This document shows positions 2-20,893 of a DNA stretch of 20,893 bases, piece by piece. Position numbers and translations under genes: made by a program. This DNA is from a virus, in IMG/VR virus record IMGVR_UViG_3300025873_000062, positions 1-20,893 of that record, one strand, 5' to 3'. The notes under the pieces were generated by a model that was not told the DNA's origin, did not search any database, and saw only the letters and a list, made by a program, of their open reading frames with translations. Positions within the stretch are counted from its first letter, which is position 1. Each line of letters begins with the position of its first letter.

Positions 2-712
2 GCTGGCACAATCGGTGAAGGTAAAGAGAAATACGCTATCGACACGTTTGCTCGTAAGATTGCTTTTACTCGTAAGATGTTAATCAATGATGATATGTCA
101 GCACTTAGCACTGTACCAACGAAATTTGGTCAAGCTGGTTCTAACTTAGAATCTAACATCGTTTGGGGTTTGTTACTTAACTGGAACTTCTTCACGAATA
201 AAGCAGCTAACTATGTAATGTCTGATGGTAAAGCGTTGTTCCATGCTGACCATGGTAACTTACTGACAGGTGCTTCTGCTTCATTGTTAGATAAAACTGG
301 TCTTTCGAACTTACGTCAATTAGGTCGCAAGATGAAAACCATGGATAACAACTTCATGAACATCATGTATAACAACTTGGTTGTACCTGAAGAACTTGAG
401 ACTGATGCTGAAGATATTCTACATAACGCATTCATAGCAACTGAAGCTTCTAAAGCGAATCAATTCCGTGGTCGTTTAGATTATCGTGTTGAACCACGTT
501 TAGCTGTTGTTACAGGTGGCGCATTAGCATGGTACGCTTTCTCTAACATGGCTGATACGTTTGAATATAGCTACTTAGCTGGTGAAGAAGAAATGATGGT
601 AGAAGTTGTTAACTCTACTGACGTTGACGGTATGGAAATCAAGGTTCGTAAAGATTTCGGTGCTGGTCTTGTTGACTATCGTGGTATGGCTAAGTCGAAA
701 GGCGCAGCTTAA
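2..712 (+). CDS. Major capsid protein, C-terminal part (gene runs off left edge)
   Basis: The frame is open from base 2, so the gene starts outside the window; the ATG at base 77 is internal and should not be taken as the start. About 236 C-terminal residues are visible. The segment FARKIAFTRKMLINDDMSAL matches the conserved 'R..R.alINDD' block of the Mu gpT-like major head proteins, and LFHADHGNL and NLVVPEELE further on are also typical of that group. In several phages this capsid domain is fused behind a ClpP-like prohead protease; whether that holds here cannot be seen. The protein assembles into the icosahedral shell. Its position directly before a cement protein gene supports the call. 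A terminator follows at once, consistent with separate control of a very highly expressed gene. Confidence 0.88.
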   Translation, partial: AGTIGEGKEKYAIDTFARKIAFTRKMLINDDMSALSTVPTKFGQAGSNLESNIVWGLLLNWNFFTNKAANYVMSDGKALFHADHGNLLTGASASLLDKTGLSNLRQLGRKMKTMDNNFMNIMYNNLVVPEELETDAEDILHNAFIATEASKANQFRGRLDYRVEPRLAVVTGGALAWYAFSNMADTFEYSYLAGEEEMMVEVVNSTDVDGMEIKVRKDFGAGLVDYRGMAKSKGAA

Positions 713-1432: not shown

Positions 1433-2041
1433 ATGTCCGTATATCATACTCATGATTTAGGTGAACTTGCTGATAAAATCAGAGAGAAATCTAAAACAGC
1501 AGACAGAGCTGCTGCCAACACCATCAATAAGTCTGCTACATTCGCTATACGTGAATCCATTAATGAAATGACTTCTGATGTTAACCTGAAACCGTCTTAC
1601 ATTAAAAAACATCTTAAAACGGTCGCTAGGGCTAGCTATAATAATTTACGTGCGGTAATCTCAGCCAATGAACGCGGTACGTTACTCGCTCGTTATCCTC
1701 ATGTTAAAACTAAAGATGGTTATCGTGTCAGTGTAAGTCGTTCTGGTGGTTTTCGTGAAATACCTAACGCAGTCATGGTCAGGACTAAAAATTCAAACGT
1801 AATGACGATTGCCATGTTCAATAAAGACCTAGTTGCTTTGATGAAAAAGCAGTCGGGCAAATCAAATAAAACATTGAAGAAAATGCGTAGGTTAATGAGT
1901 AAAGCTGATTACGGTAGAACACCGTTGCATTCAAGTAGTATTAACCAAATGTTTGAAGAAGTACGTGAAGATATTCAACCTGCCTTGAAAGAATTTATGG
2001 TTGAAACATTCTATAAGGATTTTAAAAGGTTAGACAAATGA
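1433..2041 (+). CDS. Minor tail protein Z-like tail completion protein
   Basis: A 202-residue basic protein. Residues about 20-100 contain 'AANTINKSATFAIRESINEM', 'LKPSYIKKHL' and 'NLRAVISANERGTLLARYP'. These match the plan of the prophage minor tail protein Z family (paired helices, then a strand with 'R.t.LaRf'). Lambda gpZ works at the tail end that joins the head. The C-terminal part is helical and lysine-rich. The stop codon overlaps the start of the next gene (ATGA), a sign of coupled translation, and the gene lies in the same position as Z in lambda, between FII-like and U-like genes. Confidence 0.75.
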   Translation: MSVYHTHDLGELADKIREKSKTADRAAANTINKSATFAIRESINEMTSDVNLKPSYIKKHLKTVARASYNNLRAVISANERGTLLARYPHVKTKDGYRVSVSRSGGFREIPNAVMVRTKNSNVMTIAMFNKDLVALMKKQSGKSNKTLKKMRRLMSKADYGRTPLHSSSINQMFEEVREDIQPALKEFMVETFYKDFKRLDK

Positions 2042-2475
2042 TAGCAGATGATGTAGTGCAGAATCAGATATTACCCGACTTACGAACCATCGTTGGTTTA
2101 TCTGTTTTAGATGGTTTCTTAATTCATTACGCAAAAGATTTACTTAGTGGTAAGAATGGGTTATCTTTTCCTTGTGTTGCAGTACAACCAAGCGGTGAAA
2201 CAGTAACGCCTAAGAATGATTTAACCAGCGGTCGAGTTGATAGGTCATTCAGTGTTGTAGGTGCGGTGAGTACATCTGATGCTTCAACAGTAAGATCGCA
2301 GTTAGATAAGTTGGCTCAAGATGTACGTAAGGCATTAGCTAAAGATAAAATGGATAAAACTGTTCGACCTATTACTTTTAGCACGTGTGTCTATGACTTA
2401 CCTGATTCGAAAGATGCTTACGCTTTTTTTGAGATGAAGGTAGAATTTAACATTAACGAAACGTGGATTGAATAA
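2038..2475 (+). CDS. Putative tail terminator (gpU-like) protein
   Basis: A 145-residue protein. Its pattern is typical of tail terminator/minor tail U proteins: 'FPCVAVQPSGE' in the first half, then RVDRSFSVVGAV, a long helix (STVRSQLDKLAQDVRKALAK) and a closing strand FFEMKVEFNINETWIE. Such proteins form a ring that stops tail tube growth and joins the tail to the head. No catalytic residues are expected. The start overlaps the previous stop by 4 bases, and the stop is immediately followed by the next ATG. Lambda-like order (FII, Z, U) supports the assignment; sequence alone would leave it as a tail protein. Confidence 0.65.
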   Translation: MIADDVVQNQILPDLRTIVGLSVLDGFLIHYAKDLLSGKNGLSFPCVAVQPSGETVTPKNDLTSGRVDRSFSVVGAVSTSDASTVRSQLDKLAQDVRKALAKDKMDKTVRPITFSTCVYDLPDSKDAYAFFEMKVEFNINETWIE

Positions 2476-2793
2476 ATGATTAAACTAACCCCAACGGATG
2501 ATAATGTCATCGTTAAAATTATTGAACAAGAAACAAACACTATAGGTAATGCTGGTATTATTCAGGTTGCTGAAAGTGAAGTAGCACCATCAACGTTAGC
2601 TGAAGTATTAGTACCTGCTAGTGAATCTTATTATCGCAATGGTGAGTTAAGACCTCAACCACGCTTTAGAGCAGGTGATAAGGTTCGTATACCAGCAGGT
2701 AAAGTCGGTACACACGTACCTGAAGCTGTTAAAGGTGAGAAGTGGCTAGCAATAGCTGAAGATGAAATCGTTTATAAAATAGAGGACTGTTAG
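2476..2793 (+). CDS. GroES-like co-chaperonin
   Basis: A 105-residue protein whose order of motifs follows Cpn10/GroES throughout: 'LTPTDDNVIVK' (GroES: LHDRVIVK), a glycine-containing loop 'ETNTIGNAGIIQ' where GroES has its mobile loop ending in IVL, then 'LAEVLVPAS', 'NGELRPQPRFRAGDKVRIP', and a final 'IAEDEIVYKIED' matching GroES 'MSESDILAIVE'. Length is close to the usual 95-100. In T4, gp31 replaces GroES so that host GroEL can fold the capsid protein; a similar job is likely here but not proven. The gene is wedged between tail completion and tail tube genes, an unusual place. The IIQ tripeptide, if it contacts GroEL, has a polar third residue. The ATG directly abuts the previous stop. 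Confidence 0.83.
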   Translation: MIKLTPTDDNVIVKIIEQETNTIGNAGIIQVAESEVAPSTLAEVLVPASESYYRNGELRPQPRFRAGDKVRIPAGKVGTHVPEAVKGEKWLAIAEDEIVYKIEDC

Positions 2794-2795
2794 TA

Positions 2796-2930
2796 ATGGC
2801 AAAACCTACTGTTGAAGTAACCTTTTCTAAAGCTTGTGTTTTTGCAGGTGAAGAAAAAAAGAAGGGCGATAAGCTCAAAGTAACGAAAGCTCAAGCTGAA
2901 CTGTTAAAGGTTCGTGAGCTTATTAGCTAA
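2796..2930 (+). CDS. Small 44-residue phage protein of unknown function
   Basis: A complete short frame with a good ribosome site (AGAGGA, 2781-2786, inside the end of the GroES-like gene). The protein has a short strand (VEVTFSKACVFAG), a lysine-rich turn 'EEKKKGDKLKV' and a C-terminal helix 'TKAQAELLKVRELIS'. The shape 'f.k...haG....kGd.l.vt..qA..L' is common in tiny structural-region phage proteins (DUF7210-like in my reading, not checked). It lies 2 bases after the GroES-like stop and 18 bases before the tail tube gene, so it is cotranscribed with both. Its function is unknown. Confidence 0.7.
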   Translation: MAKPTVEVTFSKACVFAGEEKKKGDKLKVTKAQAELLKVRELIS

Positions 2931-2948
2931 AACTAAGGAGAATACACT

Positions 2949-3701
2949 ATGAGTAATCTTACTCGTAACCGTAGCTTCATCGGTGGTGGTACAATCTATT
3001 TTAGAGAGAAAGGTGCAGCAGCAGCATTAATGTCTGTTGGTAACTCTGACACTCTAACATTCGCTATCAATGAAGATAAGAAAACACAACGTAACTTCCA
3101 GCAAGCAGGTGGTGGTAATATTGCATCACAATCAGCTATCACTGACGTTACTGCATCATTGAATGGTTTATCGTTTCAACCTAATTCACTTGCTGTAGCT
3201 TTACGTTCATTAGTTACAACAGTAGCAAGTGCTGTAGTTGCTGCTGAAGCTCAAGTATCTTATCTGAATGGTTTTATACCGTTTACTAAGATTCCTGATT
3301 GGAGTGAAACCTATTCAGTAACGGGTGCTGCTGGTACACCGACTTACGTTGAAGGTACTGACTACCAAGTTAAAAATGGTGGCATTTTCATTCCGAGTGA
3401 TTCAACCATTGCTGATGCGACTAATATTGAAGTGAATTATACTTCTGCTGAATATTACACCATTGAAGGTATCACTAAAGCTGCTGTTGAATATGAAATC
3501 TTCTTCGATGGTTTCAATGATGCAGATAACGGTAAAGCAGTAACGGTTAATTGCCATACTGTGAAATTTAGCCCAGCATCAGCGCTTGATTTAATCTCAG
3601 AAGATTTCGGTGCTTTACCGATGACTTTTGAAGTATTGGCTGACACGACTAAAGATGGTACAAGCGAATCACAATATTTCGTTGCTAAACTGGTAAGTTA
3701 A
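2949..3701 (+). CDS. Major tail tube protein
   Basis: A 250-residue protein translated from a strong site (AAGGAG, 2935-2940). The opening SNLTRNRSFIGGGTIYFRE and the strand-rich body with few cysteines or charged clusters fit a siphophage tail tube subunit, which stacks in hexameric rings around the tape measure. Residues about 105-170 ('NGFIPFTKIPDWSET' through 'NIEVNYTSAEYYTIEG') look like an inserted or extended beta domain; 'YVEGTDYQVKNGGIFIPS' is a pattern common in tail tube proteins. Its place directly before the tape measure gene and the terminator behind it agree with a highly expressed structural protein. Confidence 0.8.
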   Translation: MSNLTRNRSFIGGGTIYFREKGAAAALMSVGNSDTLTFAINEDKKTQRNFQQAGGGNIASQSAITDVTASLNGLSFQPNSLAVALRSLVTTVASAVVAAEAQVSYLNGFIPFTKIPDWSETYSVTGAAGTPTYVEGTDYQVKNGGIFIPSDSTIADATNIEVNYTSAEYYTIEGITKAAVEYEIFFDGFNDADNGKAVTVNCHTVKFSPASALDLISEDFGALPMTFEVLADTTKDGTSESQYFVAKLVS

Positions 3702-3722
3702 CCTTGTTCAGTAGTACACTCG

Positions 3723-3752
3723 AAGGGTTGGTTTTATACTAACCCTTTTTTT
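3723..3752 (+). terminator. Strong intrinsic terminator after the tail tube gene
   Basis: A 10-bp stem, AAGGGTTGGT paired with ACTAACCCTT (one G-T wobble), has a 5-base loop TTTAT and is followed by five more T. It lies 21 bases after the tail tube stop and 26 bases before the tape measure ATG. It would lower tape measure expression relative to tube, which suits the few-copies versus hundreds-of-copies ratio of these proteins. Confidence 0.85.
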
Positions 3753-3778
3753 ATACCTGTAATTTGGAGCTGGTGATA

Positions 3779-6700
3779 ATGGCTAATAAAAATGAAGAAA
3801 AAATCAATCTGATAATTGATGCTGAAAACCTATCATCAGATGAACTAAATAAAGCAGCTAAGGACGTTGAAGGTCTTGGTGCTGCTGCTCGTAAGACTGA
3901 AAAAGAATTAGATAAGTTAAAATTAGATAAAGCGACCATTAATTCCTATGAAGAAATGGGTGCTGAAATCAATGATCTTCAGCGTGAGATTCGTGAAACT
4001 GAAATTGAATATGAAGATTTAAATAAAGCGTTAAAGAAAAACAAGAATGCAACAAAAGAACAACGTGACGAAGTTAAGAAAACCAAGCAAGCTTTAGACA
4101 CTCAGAAGAAAGCATTGACGGTTGTTAGCGCTGAATATCGTAAAGTAGGTGTATCAGTCAAGAAGATACAGAAAGACTCTGAAACTTACGCTGAGACACA
4201 GAAACGACTAGCTGCTGAAACAACTAAGTTGAGTGGTAGACTTGAAGCTCAGAATAAAGAATTAGCTAAAAAAACTAAAATTCATAAAGACGCTATTGCC
4301 ACTGAGAAAAAAGCAATTGAGTCAGCTAAAGAACTTGAAGAAATTGAAGCGAAGTCAGCTAAGAACAATGAAAAACGTGCAAAATTAAAAGCTAAGAGTT
4401 TTAACGCTACTCGTAAAGAAGCTGCTGAAACGGCTAAGTTGGCTACTAAGTTGAAAAAGTATGAGATTGGTTTAGCTAAATTAAATAAAGAGAAAAAAGA
4501 CGGTACGTTATCAACCAGTAAATACATCAAGAGTGAAGAAAAATTACGTAAGACATTAAAACTTACCGCGAGTCAAGCTAAGTCTACTCGTTTAGCGCTT
4601 GATGCTGCCAATAAATCTAAAACTAAAGCAAGTAAGTCAACAGATGTACTAACTACCGCTACCAGACGTTTAGCACAGGCTTACACTGTGTTACTTGCTG
4701 CTCAGAAGTCTACTGAAGCTGTTGCTCAATCGGTGAAAGGTTATGGTGAATTAGAAGCAGCTATCACGAAGGTTGAAAAAACAACAGGTATCGCACGTGA
4801 GCAAGTTGTCAGTATGGCTGATGATTTACGTACAATGTCTGAGGACGTAACACCTACTGCTACTAATGAATTACTTCGTTATGCTGAAGTCGCTGGTCAA
4901 ATGGGTGTAAGTTCAACTGAGTCGATATTATCGATTGTAGCTGCTGCTGATGCGTTAGCTGTATCAACCGATTTAGCAGGTGATGAAGCTGCATTATTAA
5001 CTGCACGAATTCTAGGTATGACAGGTGAAGGTGTTGATGATATTCACAATCTTGCTTCTGCAATGGTCGATTTAGGTAACTCAACCAAGGCATCTGAATC
5101 CGAAATAGCACACATGACGAAAGAACTGGTAACAGGTACTAGAGTCATTGATTTAAGTAGTGCTGCTGCCGCTGGTTTTGGTGCAACGCTGAAAGAGTTA
5201 GGTCAACCTGCCGAAAGGTCTAGAACTGCCATACAGCGATTGTCAGAAGCTATTGTCAGTGCGTCACAAAAAGGTGGTGAAGATTTAGAGCGTTTGCAGA
5301 ATATTACTGGCATGACTGCTGAAGCAATTGAGAAAGATTTAGGTGAACGACCTGAAAAAGTAATGATTGCTTTCCTTGATGGTTTGAAGCAAGTTAAAGA
5401 CGAAGGTGGTTTAGTTAGTGACACATTACGTAGTGTAGGTATTGCTAGTCAAGAAGCTAATTCAGTATTAGGTGTTCTTGCTGACAAAACAGCTCGTTTA
5501 GCTGAAAACGTCCACCTGTCCAATGAAGCCTATGTCGCAGGTAATAAACACTTTGAAGAAGCTGCTAAAGCTTATGCTGACCAAGAAGCTGTACTTGCTC
5601 GTTTAGCTAATAAGTTCACCACGCTTAAATCGAAAATAGGTGAAGCGTTTCATCCTACTGTATTAAAAGCTGCTGAACATTTCGGTGATGCAATCGGTGA
5701 TAATGAACAAGCTTTAGTTGAAATGGCATTTCATATACCTGAGATTATTGAAGGTGTTAAAGAGGTAAGTGCTGCTTTCAACGGTGTTACTGAAATGTTC
5801 ACTGGTGACGCAGGTATTATTGAACGCACCATGGGTGGTTGGGCTATAGCGGTAAATCTTGTAACCACACATCTTAATAACATGCAGTTAGCGTGGACGC
5901 AATTTCAATTGTCTTCTGCTGAAGCGTTTGGTGGTAGTGAGCGTGATATACTTGACTATAGAAAAACCATAGCCGAATTACGTCTAGCTGTTGCTAAAGA
6001 TGCAGAAGATATAGCGCGCATCAACGCACGTATAGCTGGTGAATCATCATTAGCTTATGAGAACCTTGAAGACACTGTTGTTAACAATAAGAAAGCAATG
6101 GAGGCATTGACTGAAGAACAACGTAATCACATTCAGTCACTTATTACTACCATTGATTTCAGTGATGACCTTAATGCTGAATACCTTAAAGCAGCATCCT
6201 TGATTGCACGTAAAAGTGTTGAGTTAAAAATACTTGCTGCACAGCAGGAGCAAGCAAATAAAACCACGAAAGAAGGTGTTAATGTCCTTCAAGAAATGGA
6301 TGAAAGTTATAAAAATGTTAAATCGTCATCTGATGAATTAAATAAATCAACAGACGTAACAATCGAATCAGTAGATAGATTTTCTAAGGAAACAAATAAT
6401 CTTGCCATATCTGTTCGTAATATTGAAAAAGAGATAATTAAACTTGAAGATGCTCAAAGGGATAAGAATCAAACAGATAAGAATCAATTTGAGATATCTC
6501 GTAAATTACAATCGTTAAATGAACAAAGAGTGGAAAGCAGTAAGAATTTAGTAATCAGGCAAGAACTTGAGACTAAAACACTAGGTCAATTAGTCGAGGT
6601 TCAACGGCAGCACACATACGAAATGGAGTTACTTGATTTAAGATGGAAAGCAGGTGCGTTAACTGTTGTTGAATACACTAAAGCGAAAGAAGATGCAGCG

Positions 6701-7702
6701 TTTAAGACTCAGTTACTTACTCAATTATTAGGTGATTCTGCATCATCTTTCAGTGATGAAGCTGATGCGGCTAATGCTGCTGCTGCTGCTATTGCCGCCA
6801 GAACTAAATCAAGTGAAGGTAGTACCGAGCAGCTACAGCAGCAAAACGCTGAACTAGCTAAAAATGCTGGTCATGCAGGGGTGTCTAATGCGCTAGCTAA
6901 CCGCTGGTTAATATTACAGAAACAGTTAACTAAGGAATACGACCATTCTGGTAAATCTATAGCTGATTTAAGTGCAGAGATAGATGAACTTAACTCTGAA
7001 TATCGTGAGTTTAACTTGGCAACAGCTAGGGCTACTCACGACCTCATAGGTGTAATGAAACCCATTGATGATATGACGCGTGCCGTTAATCGCCACAGGG
7101 TTGCTGTGTTGGAAGAAAATAAAGAGCTAGCAGTATGGATAGACCGAGTTAATTCTGGTTCATTGAGTTTAAAACAATTAGGTAATGCAGCGTGGCAAGC
7201 TGATAATTATTTCACTAAATTGTCAGATAACCAGCTAGAACCTTTACGTGCAGCAATCAAAGATGCGCGTAGTGAATTTAGTGACTTGTCTGACGAAATC
7301 AATGACACTTTTGATGATGTTACGGACAGGTTAGACGAATTACTAGGTAATGAAGCAGGTATTCTTGAGCGTAAATTTAAACGTGAAATGGAGGAAATGC
7401 AAGACCTATTATCACGTGCTACAGCAGCAGGTAACGAGGCTTTAATTAACCAAGTCAAAACAGCTATTCGCAACCTTAAAAAAGCACAGAAACTTGAAAA
7501 GAAAGAATTAGACGAATCAACCTCACTACCCAAACAAGAACAAAAAACACCGACTTCATCGAGTGGGGGTGAAGTTACGGTCAACATTAACTTACCTAAT
7601 GGTTCAACACGTTCAGTCGATGTAGCTAGTCAAGGTGACGCAGATACTTTAGTATCAGCATTGAATCTTTTAGGTGAAATTAATATTAATGGAGTGAGCT
7701 AA
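3779..7702 (+). CDS. Tail tape measure protein (TP901 type core)
   Basis: I place the start at ATG 3779 (1307 residues), because TTGGAG at 3764-3769 is its ribosome site at 9-base spacing; the in-frame TTG at 3764 is part of that site and is unlikely to be the start. Residues about 1-310 are a lysine/glutamate-rich coiled coil. Residues about 317-625 hold the TP901 tape measure core: 'GELEAAITKVEKTTG', 'LRYAEVAGQMGVSS', 'LLTARILGMTGEG', 'GATLKELGQPAERS' and 'GEAFHPTVLKAAEHFG'. A second long helical region follows, with a proline/serine linker and a small strand-rich end. The protein sets tail length and exits with the DNA. No clear lysozyme or peptidase domain was seen. The stop overlaps the next ATG by one base. 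Confidence 0.93.
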   Translation: MANKNEEKINLIIDAENLSSDELNKAAKDVEGLGAAARKTEKELDKLKLDKATINSYEEMGAEINDLQREIRETEIEYEDLNKALKKNKNATKEQRDEVKKTKQALDTQKKALTVVSAEYRKVGVSVKKIQKDSETYAETQKRLAAETTKLSGRLEAQNKELAKKTKIHKDAIATEKKAIESAKELEEIEAKSAKNNEKRAKLKAKSFNATRKEAAETAKLATKLKKYEIGLAKLNKEKKDGTLSTSKYIKSEEKLRKTLKLTASQAKSTRLALDAANKSKTKASKSTDVLTTATRRLAQAYTVLLAAQKSTEAVAQSVKGYGELEAAITKVEKTTGIAREQVVSMADDLRTMSEDVTPTATNELLRYAEVAGQMGVSSTESILSIVAAADALAVSTDLAGDEAALLTARILGMTGEGVDDIHNLASAMVDLGNSTKASESEIAHMTKELVTGTRVIDLSSAAAAGFGATLKELGQPAERSRTAIQRLSEAIVSASQKGGEDLERLQNITGMTAEAIEKDLGERPEKVMIAFLDGLKQVKDEGGLVSDTLRSVGIASQEANSVLGVLADKTARLAENVHLSNEAYVAGNKHFEEAAKAYADQEAVLARLANKFTTLKSKIGEAFHPTVLKAAEHFGDAIGDNEQALVEMAFHIPEIIEGVKEVSAAFNGVTEMFTGDAGIIERTMGGWAIAVNLVTTHLNNMQLAWTQFQLSSAEAFGGSERDILDYRKTIAELRLAVAKDAEDIARINARIAGESSLAYENLEDTVVNNKKAMEALTEEQRNHIQSLITTIDFSDDLNAEYLKAASLIARKSVELKILAAQQEQANKTTKEGVNVLQEMDESYKNVKSSSDELNKSTDVTIESVDRFSKETNNLAISVRNIEKEIIKLEDAQRDKNQTDKNQFEISRKLQSLNEQRVESSKNLVIRQELETKTLGQLVEVQRQHTYEMELLDLRWKAGALTVVEYTKAKEDAAFKTQLLTQLLGDSASSFSDEADAANAAAAAIAARTKSSEGSTEQLQQQNAELAKNAGHAGVSNALANRWLILQKQLTKEYDHSGKSIADLSAEIDELNSEYREFNLATARATHDLIGVMKPIDDMTRAVNRHRVAVLEENKELAVWIDRVNSGSLSLKQLGNAAWQADNYFTKLSDNQLEPLRAAIKDARSEFSDLSDEINDTFDDVTDRLDELLGNEAGILERKFKREMEEMQDLLSRATAAGNEALINQVKTAIRNLKKAQKLEKKELDESTSLPKQEQKTPTSSSGGEVTVNINLPNGSTRSVDVASQGDADTLVSALNLLGEININGVS

Positions 7703-20055: not shown

Positions 20056-20814
20056 CTACTGGTTATACCTCCATTCAGCTAACTCACACGCAATACCACA
20101 TTCAATCTTAGGTTCATCAGACAATCGACCTCTGTTCGGGTCAAGTGTATCAAGATATAAAGGTTCACCAGTTTTAGACTCTTTCAACACTGTGTAACCT
20201 TTCAGTCGTTCAAACTTAGCCATACGGTCAAACTCAGCAGGAAAATCTTTCCTAATCTTATTCCAGTACCCCATGCCACCTTTAACACACCCTATGCAGT
20301 TATTGTGCTCATAGCCTAACTTATACATTTCAGGTAATTCAATACCAGCTCTAGCCACCATTGCTAAACAATTATCCTTGGTGATTTTATTGTCAATCAG
20401 TATATTTTCAATCTCAACATCAGGGTTACGTTTTTCAAAATCTAAAGCACGTTGTTCTTCTTCTAGTGTGAAACCGAAAACATGTACATCATCAGGTCGT
20501 TGAAACTTACCTCTGACTTGTTTCTTCAGTGCTCTAGTGCAAGGTGCACCTGATGGTGTACGCATGTAGTTCTTATCGAAAACATTGTATATAGAACCTT
20601 TGTAACCCTCATGCTGAATAGTGATTATTTCATGGTTAAACCACTTCTCGCATTCTTTAGTGAACCGTTCATTATCGGGGTGTTCTTCTTTTATATAACA
20701 ACGTGCAATTACTACTTCATCGAACTGACTTAATAATTCCTTATCGGCTAGTCCTATCTTTATAGCTGATGCGCTAGCTGCACCACACGAATACCAAAAA
20801 ATTAATCTACTCAT
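20056..20814 (-). CDS. PAPS reductase-like PP-loop protein
   Basis: I place the start at ATG 20814 (252 residues), with GAGGA 10 bases upstream; a GTG at 20823 lies within 2 bases of that site. The N-terminal WYSCGAASASA is a variant of the SGG-x-S PP-loop that binds the ATP/PAPS phosphates. Further marks are 'EEHPDNERF', 'SGAPCTRALKK', 'HVFGFT', and 'NNCIGCVKGGMGYWNKIRKD'. Cys173, Cys176, Cys239 and Cys243 form two pairs that could hold an iron-sulfur cluster, as in DndC-type members of the superfamily. The family is widespread in siphophages with unknown substrate; sulfur assimilation or DNA/RNA modification are both possible. It lies in the replication operon, one base before the helicase gene. 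Confidence 0.83.
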   Translation of the reverse strand: MSRLIFWYSCGAASASAIKIGLADKELLSQFDEVVIARCYIKEEHPDNERFTKECEKWFNHEIITIQHEGYKGSIYNVFDKNYMRTPSGAPCTRALKKQVRGKFQRPDDVHVFGFTLEEEQRALDFEKRNPDVEIENILIDNKITKDNCLAMVARAGIELPEMYKLGYEHNNCIGCVKGGMGYWNKIRKDFPAEFDRMAKFERLKGYTVLKESKTGEPLYLDTLDPNRGRLSDEPKIECGIACELAEWRYNQ

Positions 20815-20893
20815 TTTGTTCACTTCCTCGTTTTATTTCAATATTATCAACGTGTTTTAATATTTCATCTAATAATACTAAATGATTAGTCGT
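20807..20893 (-). CDS. C-terminal end of an unidentified leftward gene
   Basis: An open frame enters from the right edge and gives 28 residues (TTNHLVLLDEILKHVDNIEI, then KRGSEQNE) before a TAG. The stop lies 8 bases inside the PP-loop gene, which fits the tight operon spacing seen throughout. The visible end is a helix with no recognisable motif. The gene's beginning and function are outside the window. Confidence 0.6.
   Translation of the reverse strand, partial: TTNHLVLLDEILKHVDNIEIKRGSEQNE

Follow-up and report, generated by a model that had tools for sequence, protein, structure and literature searches.

Positions 2476-2793 on the plus strand of the window, by which we mean the whole 20,893-nucleotide stretch of IMG/VR record IMGVR_UViG_3300025873_000062 analysed here, carry a real, somewhat divergent GroES (Cpn10) gene. 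Sequence searches, a structure model and comparison of related phages place the product in the Cpn10 family with the corresponding fold, and reveal a gene that holds the same late-operon position in every sampled member of its clade, under purifying selection and with no phage GroEL found among the clade's virus records searched. We consider it likely that the protein serves as a phage-encoded GroES lid on host GroEL, folding the phage's own virion proteins, with the capsid-protease fusion, the tail tube and the tape measure as candidate clients. The window Cpn10 is a further member of an already published arrangement, occupying the same slot as the GroES gene of Pseudoalteromonas phage B8b.

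Along the window, the protease-capsid fusion, truncated by the window start, is followed by the decoration, head closure, neck and tail terminator genes; Cpn10 comes next, and after it the 44-aa DUF7210 protein, the Ig-like tail tube and the tape measure, with more genes on the same strand beyond. The Cpn10 gene and its surroundings comprise:

77-712, plus strand: protease-major capsid fusion, C-terminal part, the 5′ end of the gene lying outside the window (phrog_4523, 1.2e-67, annotated as major head and protease protein; profile positions 446-644 of 644)
2038-2475, plus strand: tail terminator, upstream of Cpn10 (phrog_5185, 4.3e-18; phrog_4204, tail terminator, 6e-4; PF23840 below cut-off; VirFam Tc1 in relatives)
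2476-2793, plus strand: Cpn10/GroES-like co-chaperonin, 105 aa (PF00166 above the gathering cut-off, phrog_3188, AlphaFold, Foldseek)
2796-2930, plus strand: DUF7210 microprotein, 44 aa, between Cpn10 and tail tube (PF23843, 31.9 bits with a cut-off of 27; relatives have an ORF in the corresponding position)
2949-3701, plus strand: major tail (tube) protein with Ig-like domain (phrog_807, 8.6e-59)
3722-3748, plus strand: terminator-like hairpin in the gap between tube and tape measure genes, the usual site of a tail assembly chaperone gene
3764-7702, plus strand: tape measure protein of roughly 1307-1312 aa, probably starting at the ATG at 3779 (phrog_23108, 1.8e-248; PF10145)

The stop codon of the tail terminator abuts the Cpn10 ATG, which suggests translational coupling of Cpn10 to the terminator. 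The preliminary description had placed the co-chaperonin between a gpU-like gene and the tail tube gene. The structural operon and the position after the tail terminator were correct, but the 44-aa DUF7210 ORF, unmentioned there, intervenes before the tube. A second terminator-like hairpin (727-749) lies just 3′ of the capsid gene, and the segment from decoration to tube genes is bounded by two such sites. The capsid coding region also contains a two-copy 24-bp tandem repeat (332-378).

The ORF starts with ATG and encodes 105 aa. Its product matched the Pfam Cpn10 family PF00166 (E = 2.6e-7, 31.0 bits; curated gathering cut-off 21.1 bits), with residues 3-101 aligned to profile positions 1-92 of 93, and the PHROG family phrog_3188, "co-chaperonin GroES" (E = 1.5e-10). 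PF00166 was the sole Pfam match in all 18 aligned family members. At the sequence level, the product matched GroES chains in the PDB, and the family profile retrieved several bacterial GroES chains at 1e-13 to 1e-12. A single-chain AlphaFold model built from 14 sequences had a mean pLDDT of 85.7 and a pTM of 0.76, with pLDDT below 50 solely at residues 24-28, within the mobile loop. When this model was compared with the PDB using Foldseek, the best 23 matches, counted up to an E-value of 0.001, were all Cpn10/GroES proteins (E = 4e-5 to 8e-4); T4 gp31 ranked 27th, and the top viral match was the GroES of phage B8b. TM-scores were moderate (0.56-0.65) and rmsd was high, for which the loops are probably responsible; the barrel assignment relies on the E-values, the match probability and the sequence matches. 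The model has the GroES beta-barrel fold with a roof loop. The preliminary description had assigned the 105-residue product to the GroES family, and this assignment is borne out by the profile match above the cut-off as well as by the Cpn10 fold of the model. The PROSITE cpn10 signature, a diagnostic motif rather than a family definition, in the form used here matched E. coli GroES and none of the 16 clade members; it is too narrow to exclude the clade proteins, which pass the Pfam profile.

The window Cpn10 aligns with E. coli GroES from end to end at 35% identity and shares its fold. It differs in its contact residues, in a loop insertion and in its genomic setting, which is a phage late operon and not the vicinity of groEL. 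Phage-encoded co-chaperonins that work with host GroEL include T4 gp31 and RB49 CocO. The T4 protein is far more divergent in sequence, with 14% identity to the window Cpn10 over a structural alignment, and its gene is not known to lie in a tail gene cluster.

Within the protein, three segments were located by alignment and modelling:

2524-2577, plus strand: predicted mobile loop, approximately residues 17-34 (lowest pLDDT at residues 24-28; alignment gap)
2560-2568, plus strand: putative GroEL-contact tripeptide I29-Q30-V31 (aligned with I25-V26-L27 of E. coli GroES)
2635-2646, plus strand: roof-loop segment R54-N-G-E57 (aligned with ENGE of E. coli GroES)

The bounds of the mobile loop were set by analogy with E. 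coli GroES. The low AlphaFold confidence of the loop would be expected of a flexible segment. The loop is longer than the loops of relatives by three or four residues, depending on alignment settings, and the insertion was absent from all aligned relatives. The insertion rests on one contig, since no near-identical copies of the loop DNA were found in IMG/VR. In a single-gap alignment, I29-Q30-V31 fell opposite I25-V26-L27 of E. coli GroES. The contact tripeptide had earlier been read as IIQ, a register that requires two gaps; IQV requires one and is the more parsimonious choice. In that register the window copy has a polar middle residue at the putative contact site, where the aligned relatives carry hydrophobic residues (IVL, III, IIV, ILL or FVV). 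The longer loop and the polar contact residue could weaken GroEL binding, and the variant offers a natural test of the rules of GroEL contact.

A tblastn search with Cpn10 in 50,697 phage records returned eight records with good matches (36-43% identity), representing seven phages, with Shewanella phage 1/44 present twice. The others were Nahant phages 1.049, 1.050, 1.055, 1.083 and 2.096 and Pseudoalteromonas phage B8b. The gene occupied the same slot in every matching cultured phage whose region was examined, and further Cpn10 contigs with this slot were found in IMG/VR. The co-chaperonins of phage 1/44 and the Nahant phages share the gene order of the window and are 37-41% identical to its Cpn10; unlike it, they have IVL or LIL contact residues and lack the loop insertion. 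The B8b GroES (KM000061, Contig2_ORF19; PMC4294664) belongs to the same family and lies in the same slot, preceded by the tail terminator and followed by the small ORF-tail tube pair, with approximately 43% identity. As in the window, the tube-tape measure gap of B8b lacks an ORF. The B8b GroES differs in that its mobile loop is of the canonical GGIVL form and its N terminus is extended, whereas the window Cpn10 has a loop insertion and IQV. This extension of about 24 residues aligned across several members of the B8b branch (L003:7917-7990, L023:3293-3370, L024:7917-7994 and L028:2599-2670). A Pseudoalteromonas luteoviolacea genome carried the Cpn10 module, with Cpn10 in the same slot, in a prophage, and also had the bacterium's own groES-groEL.

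The 2015 report on B8b presented the gene as the first GroES known from a siphovirus and proposed that GroES was needed for a complex capsid or tail (PMC4294664). The preliminary description had regarded a co-chaperonin in the tail cluster as unusual; the placement is in fact fixed throughout a phage lineage and has been in print for B8b since that report (PMC4294664).

For the phylogeny of the locus, a tail-tube tree was built from 73 de-replicated loci, selected mostly on the tube rather than on Cpn10. The Cpn10-bearing loci formed one clade (SH-aLRT 99), with Cpn10 present in all 16 rows. One of these, L035, appeared at first as a counter-example, having a clade tube without Cpn10 directly upstream; a Cpn10 match was located at the other end of the contig, consistent with circular permutation, and the locus was counted as Cpn10-bearing on that basis. 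This apparently permuted contig (L035:1-427) has extra sequence between Cpn10 and the small ORF-tail tube pair. Cpn10 was kept at one late-operon site in all sampled lineages, down to approximately 40% tube identity, and looks like a core gene of the lineage. Among the pairs for which values could be computed, pairwise dN was 0.08-0.45 and dS was 0.8-1.6, the latter near saturation, a pattern indicating purifying selection. Identities of Cpn10 and tail tube were correlated over 15 lineages (r = 0.56, Mantel p = 0.0005).

A search of 11 virus records from the clade detected no Cpn60/GroEL, which makes host GroEL the likely partner, as the preliminary description had proposed. According to the mechanism that we favour, Cpn10 would be made along with the late structural proteins, probably through translational coupling to the terminator gene upstream, and would most likely assemble into a seven-subunit lid. 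The lid would dock on host GroEL through the mobile loop, and the resulting complex may help to fold one or more phage virion proteins during assembly, with Cpn10 itself staying out of the virion. In the virion proteomics of B8b, the capsid, tail tube and tape measure yielded 937, 290 and 74 spectra, respectively, and no GroES peptides were listed in the table (PMC4294664). This absence suits a non-virion folding factor; the negative is a weak one, as small proteins are often missed. The 208-aa neck protein was missed as well (PMC4294664).

The tube-tape measure gap bears on the question of tail chaperones. In the window the gap is 62-77 bp and contains no ORF. Across the clade it measured 44-83 bp in all 16 Cpn10 lineages and was filled by a terminator-like hairpin (16/16) whose stem sequences differed, while an ORF of the lambda G/GT type with a frameshift extension was absent from every one of the 16 members. 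The hairpin was also present in 12 of the 27 Cpn10-less relatives without a gap ORF and in 3 of the 30 remaining relatives; it probably limits expression of the tape measure relative to the tube. Several Cpn10-less phages with a homologous tube do have ORFs in the gap (HXX_Dennis, QH16, F10, U5 and Y8A), that of HXX_Dennis being an annotated frameshift product. In the first comparisons every Cpn10-less relative had such an ORF, and a simple replacement of the tail assembly chaperone by Cpn10 was entertained; the 73-tube sample refuted it, as 27 of the 54 Cpn10-less relatives on the de-replicated tree have no gap ORF. The earlier observation that the window has no G/GT tail chaperone is correct for the gap itself, but is not specific to Cpn10 phages. 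Loci from bacterial genomes (L150-L156) show the terminator-tube-tape measure order with neither Cpn10 nor a gap ORF, and both are likewise missing from many other relatives with a homologous tail tube, L041-L045 and L055-L081 among them.

Against this background, it is unlikely that Cpn10 took over the job of the missing G/GT chaperone, specifically serving the tape measure or the tail tube. The uniformly short, hairpin-filled gap of the 16 Cpn10 lineages, set against the ORF of other relatives with a homologous tube, would fit such a takeover, as would the adjacency of the gene to tail genes. However, the 27 Cpn10-less relatives without a gap ORF, L150-L156 among them, indicate that the chaperone-less state does not depend on Cpn10, and capping GroEL as a GroES lid is a different activity from coating the tape measure as a chaperone. 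The single origin of Cpn10 on the tree moreover amounts to a single comparison without statistical power, so that no statistical association between Cpn10 and a missing chaperone can be claimed. A more elaborate version, in which host GroEL and the phage lid form a dedicated folding route for a tail protein that replaces the usual tail assembly chaperone, and in which the lengthened IQV loop marks a changed GroEL partner or affinity, seems slightly less credible still. Capture from a host as a passenger (moron) or general stress helper is likewise improbable: Cpn10 does occur elsewhere in other phage genomes, among the non-structural genes of Vibrio phage D71 and before the terminase of Xanthomonas phage PBR31, which has podovirus-type tail genes, but the single late-operon site in all sampled lineages, the purifying selection and the divergence tracking that of the tail tube speak against such a capture.

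The likely reading of a folding lid on host GroEL leaves several candidate clients. T4 gp31 is needed for gp23, and a protease-major capsid fusion of approximately 670-700 aa may similarly need a modified GroES. This capsid-specific reading is a possibility of some substance, on which we place less than even weight; the fusion is co-inherited with Cpn10 across the clade, and T4 gp31 is a precedent. Another is the GroE-dependence of lambda heads, cited in PMC4294664. Nevertheless, Rhodobacter phage RcMamaDuck, Stenotrophomonas phage S1 and Pseudomonas phage LPPA33 have a similar fusion without Cpn10 in the structural cluster. An attempt to decide between head and tail clients by gene linkage failed, since the head and tail genes located in the analysed DNA are both co-inherited with Cpn10 across the clade and linkage cannot separate them. 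Since phages with a capsid fusion or tail tube of this kind exist without Cpn10 in the cluster, no client is compelled. It is very unlikely that the protein has kept its fold while becoming a structural or connecting part of the particle. The location between terminator and tube genes could be taken that way, and Cpn10 forms seven-fold rings; tail tubes, however, are six-fold, and the relatives keep a mobile loop with canonical IVL-type contact residues. B8b virions, moreover, yielded no GroES peptides (PMC4294664).

With the window, a divergent representative joins a group of small marine siphophages that has received little study and in which a GroES gene is fixed in the morphogenesis operon. 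The cultured members (1/44, B8b and the Nahant isolates) make both the retention of GroES in phages of about 50 kb or less and the identity of the virion client directly testable. Chaperonins of virioplankton were reportedly the subject of work by Marine et al. in 2017.

Other genes of the window include a lysis region, in which an endolysin-like transglycosylase (13807-14397) precedes an Rz-like inner spanin (14409-14837, phrog_1152), and an apparent outer-spanin lipoprotein ORF (14680-15000) overlaps the latter in another frame. On the minus strand, a phosphoadenosine phosphosulfate reductase-like gene (20056-20823; phrog_424, 2.8e-38) lies beside helicase and DNA polymerase genes.
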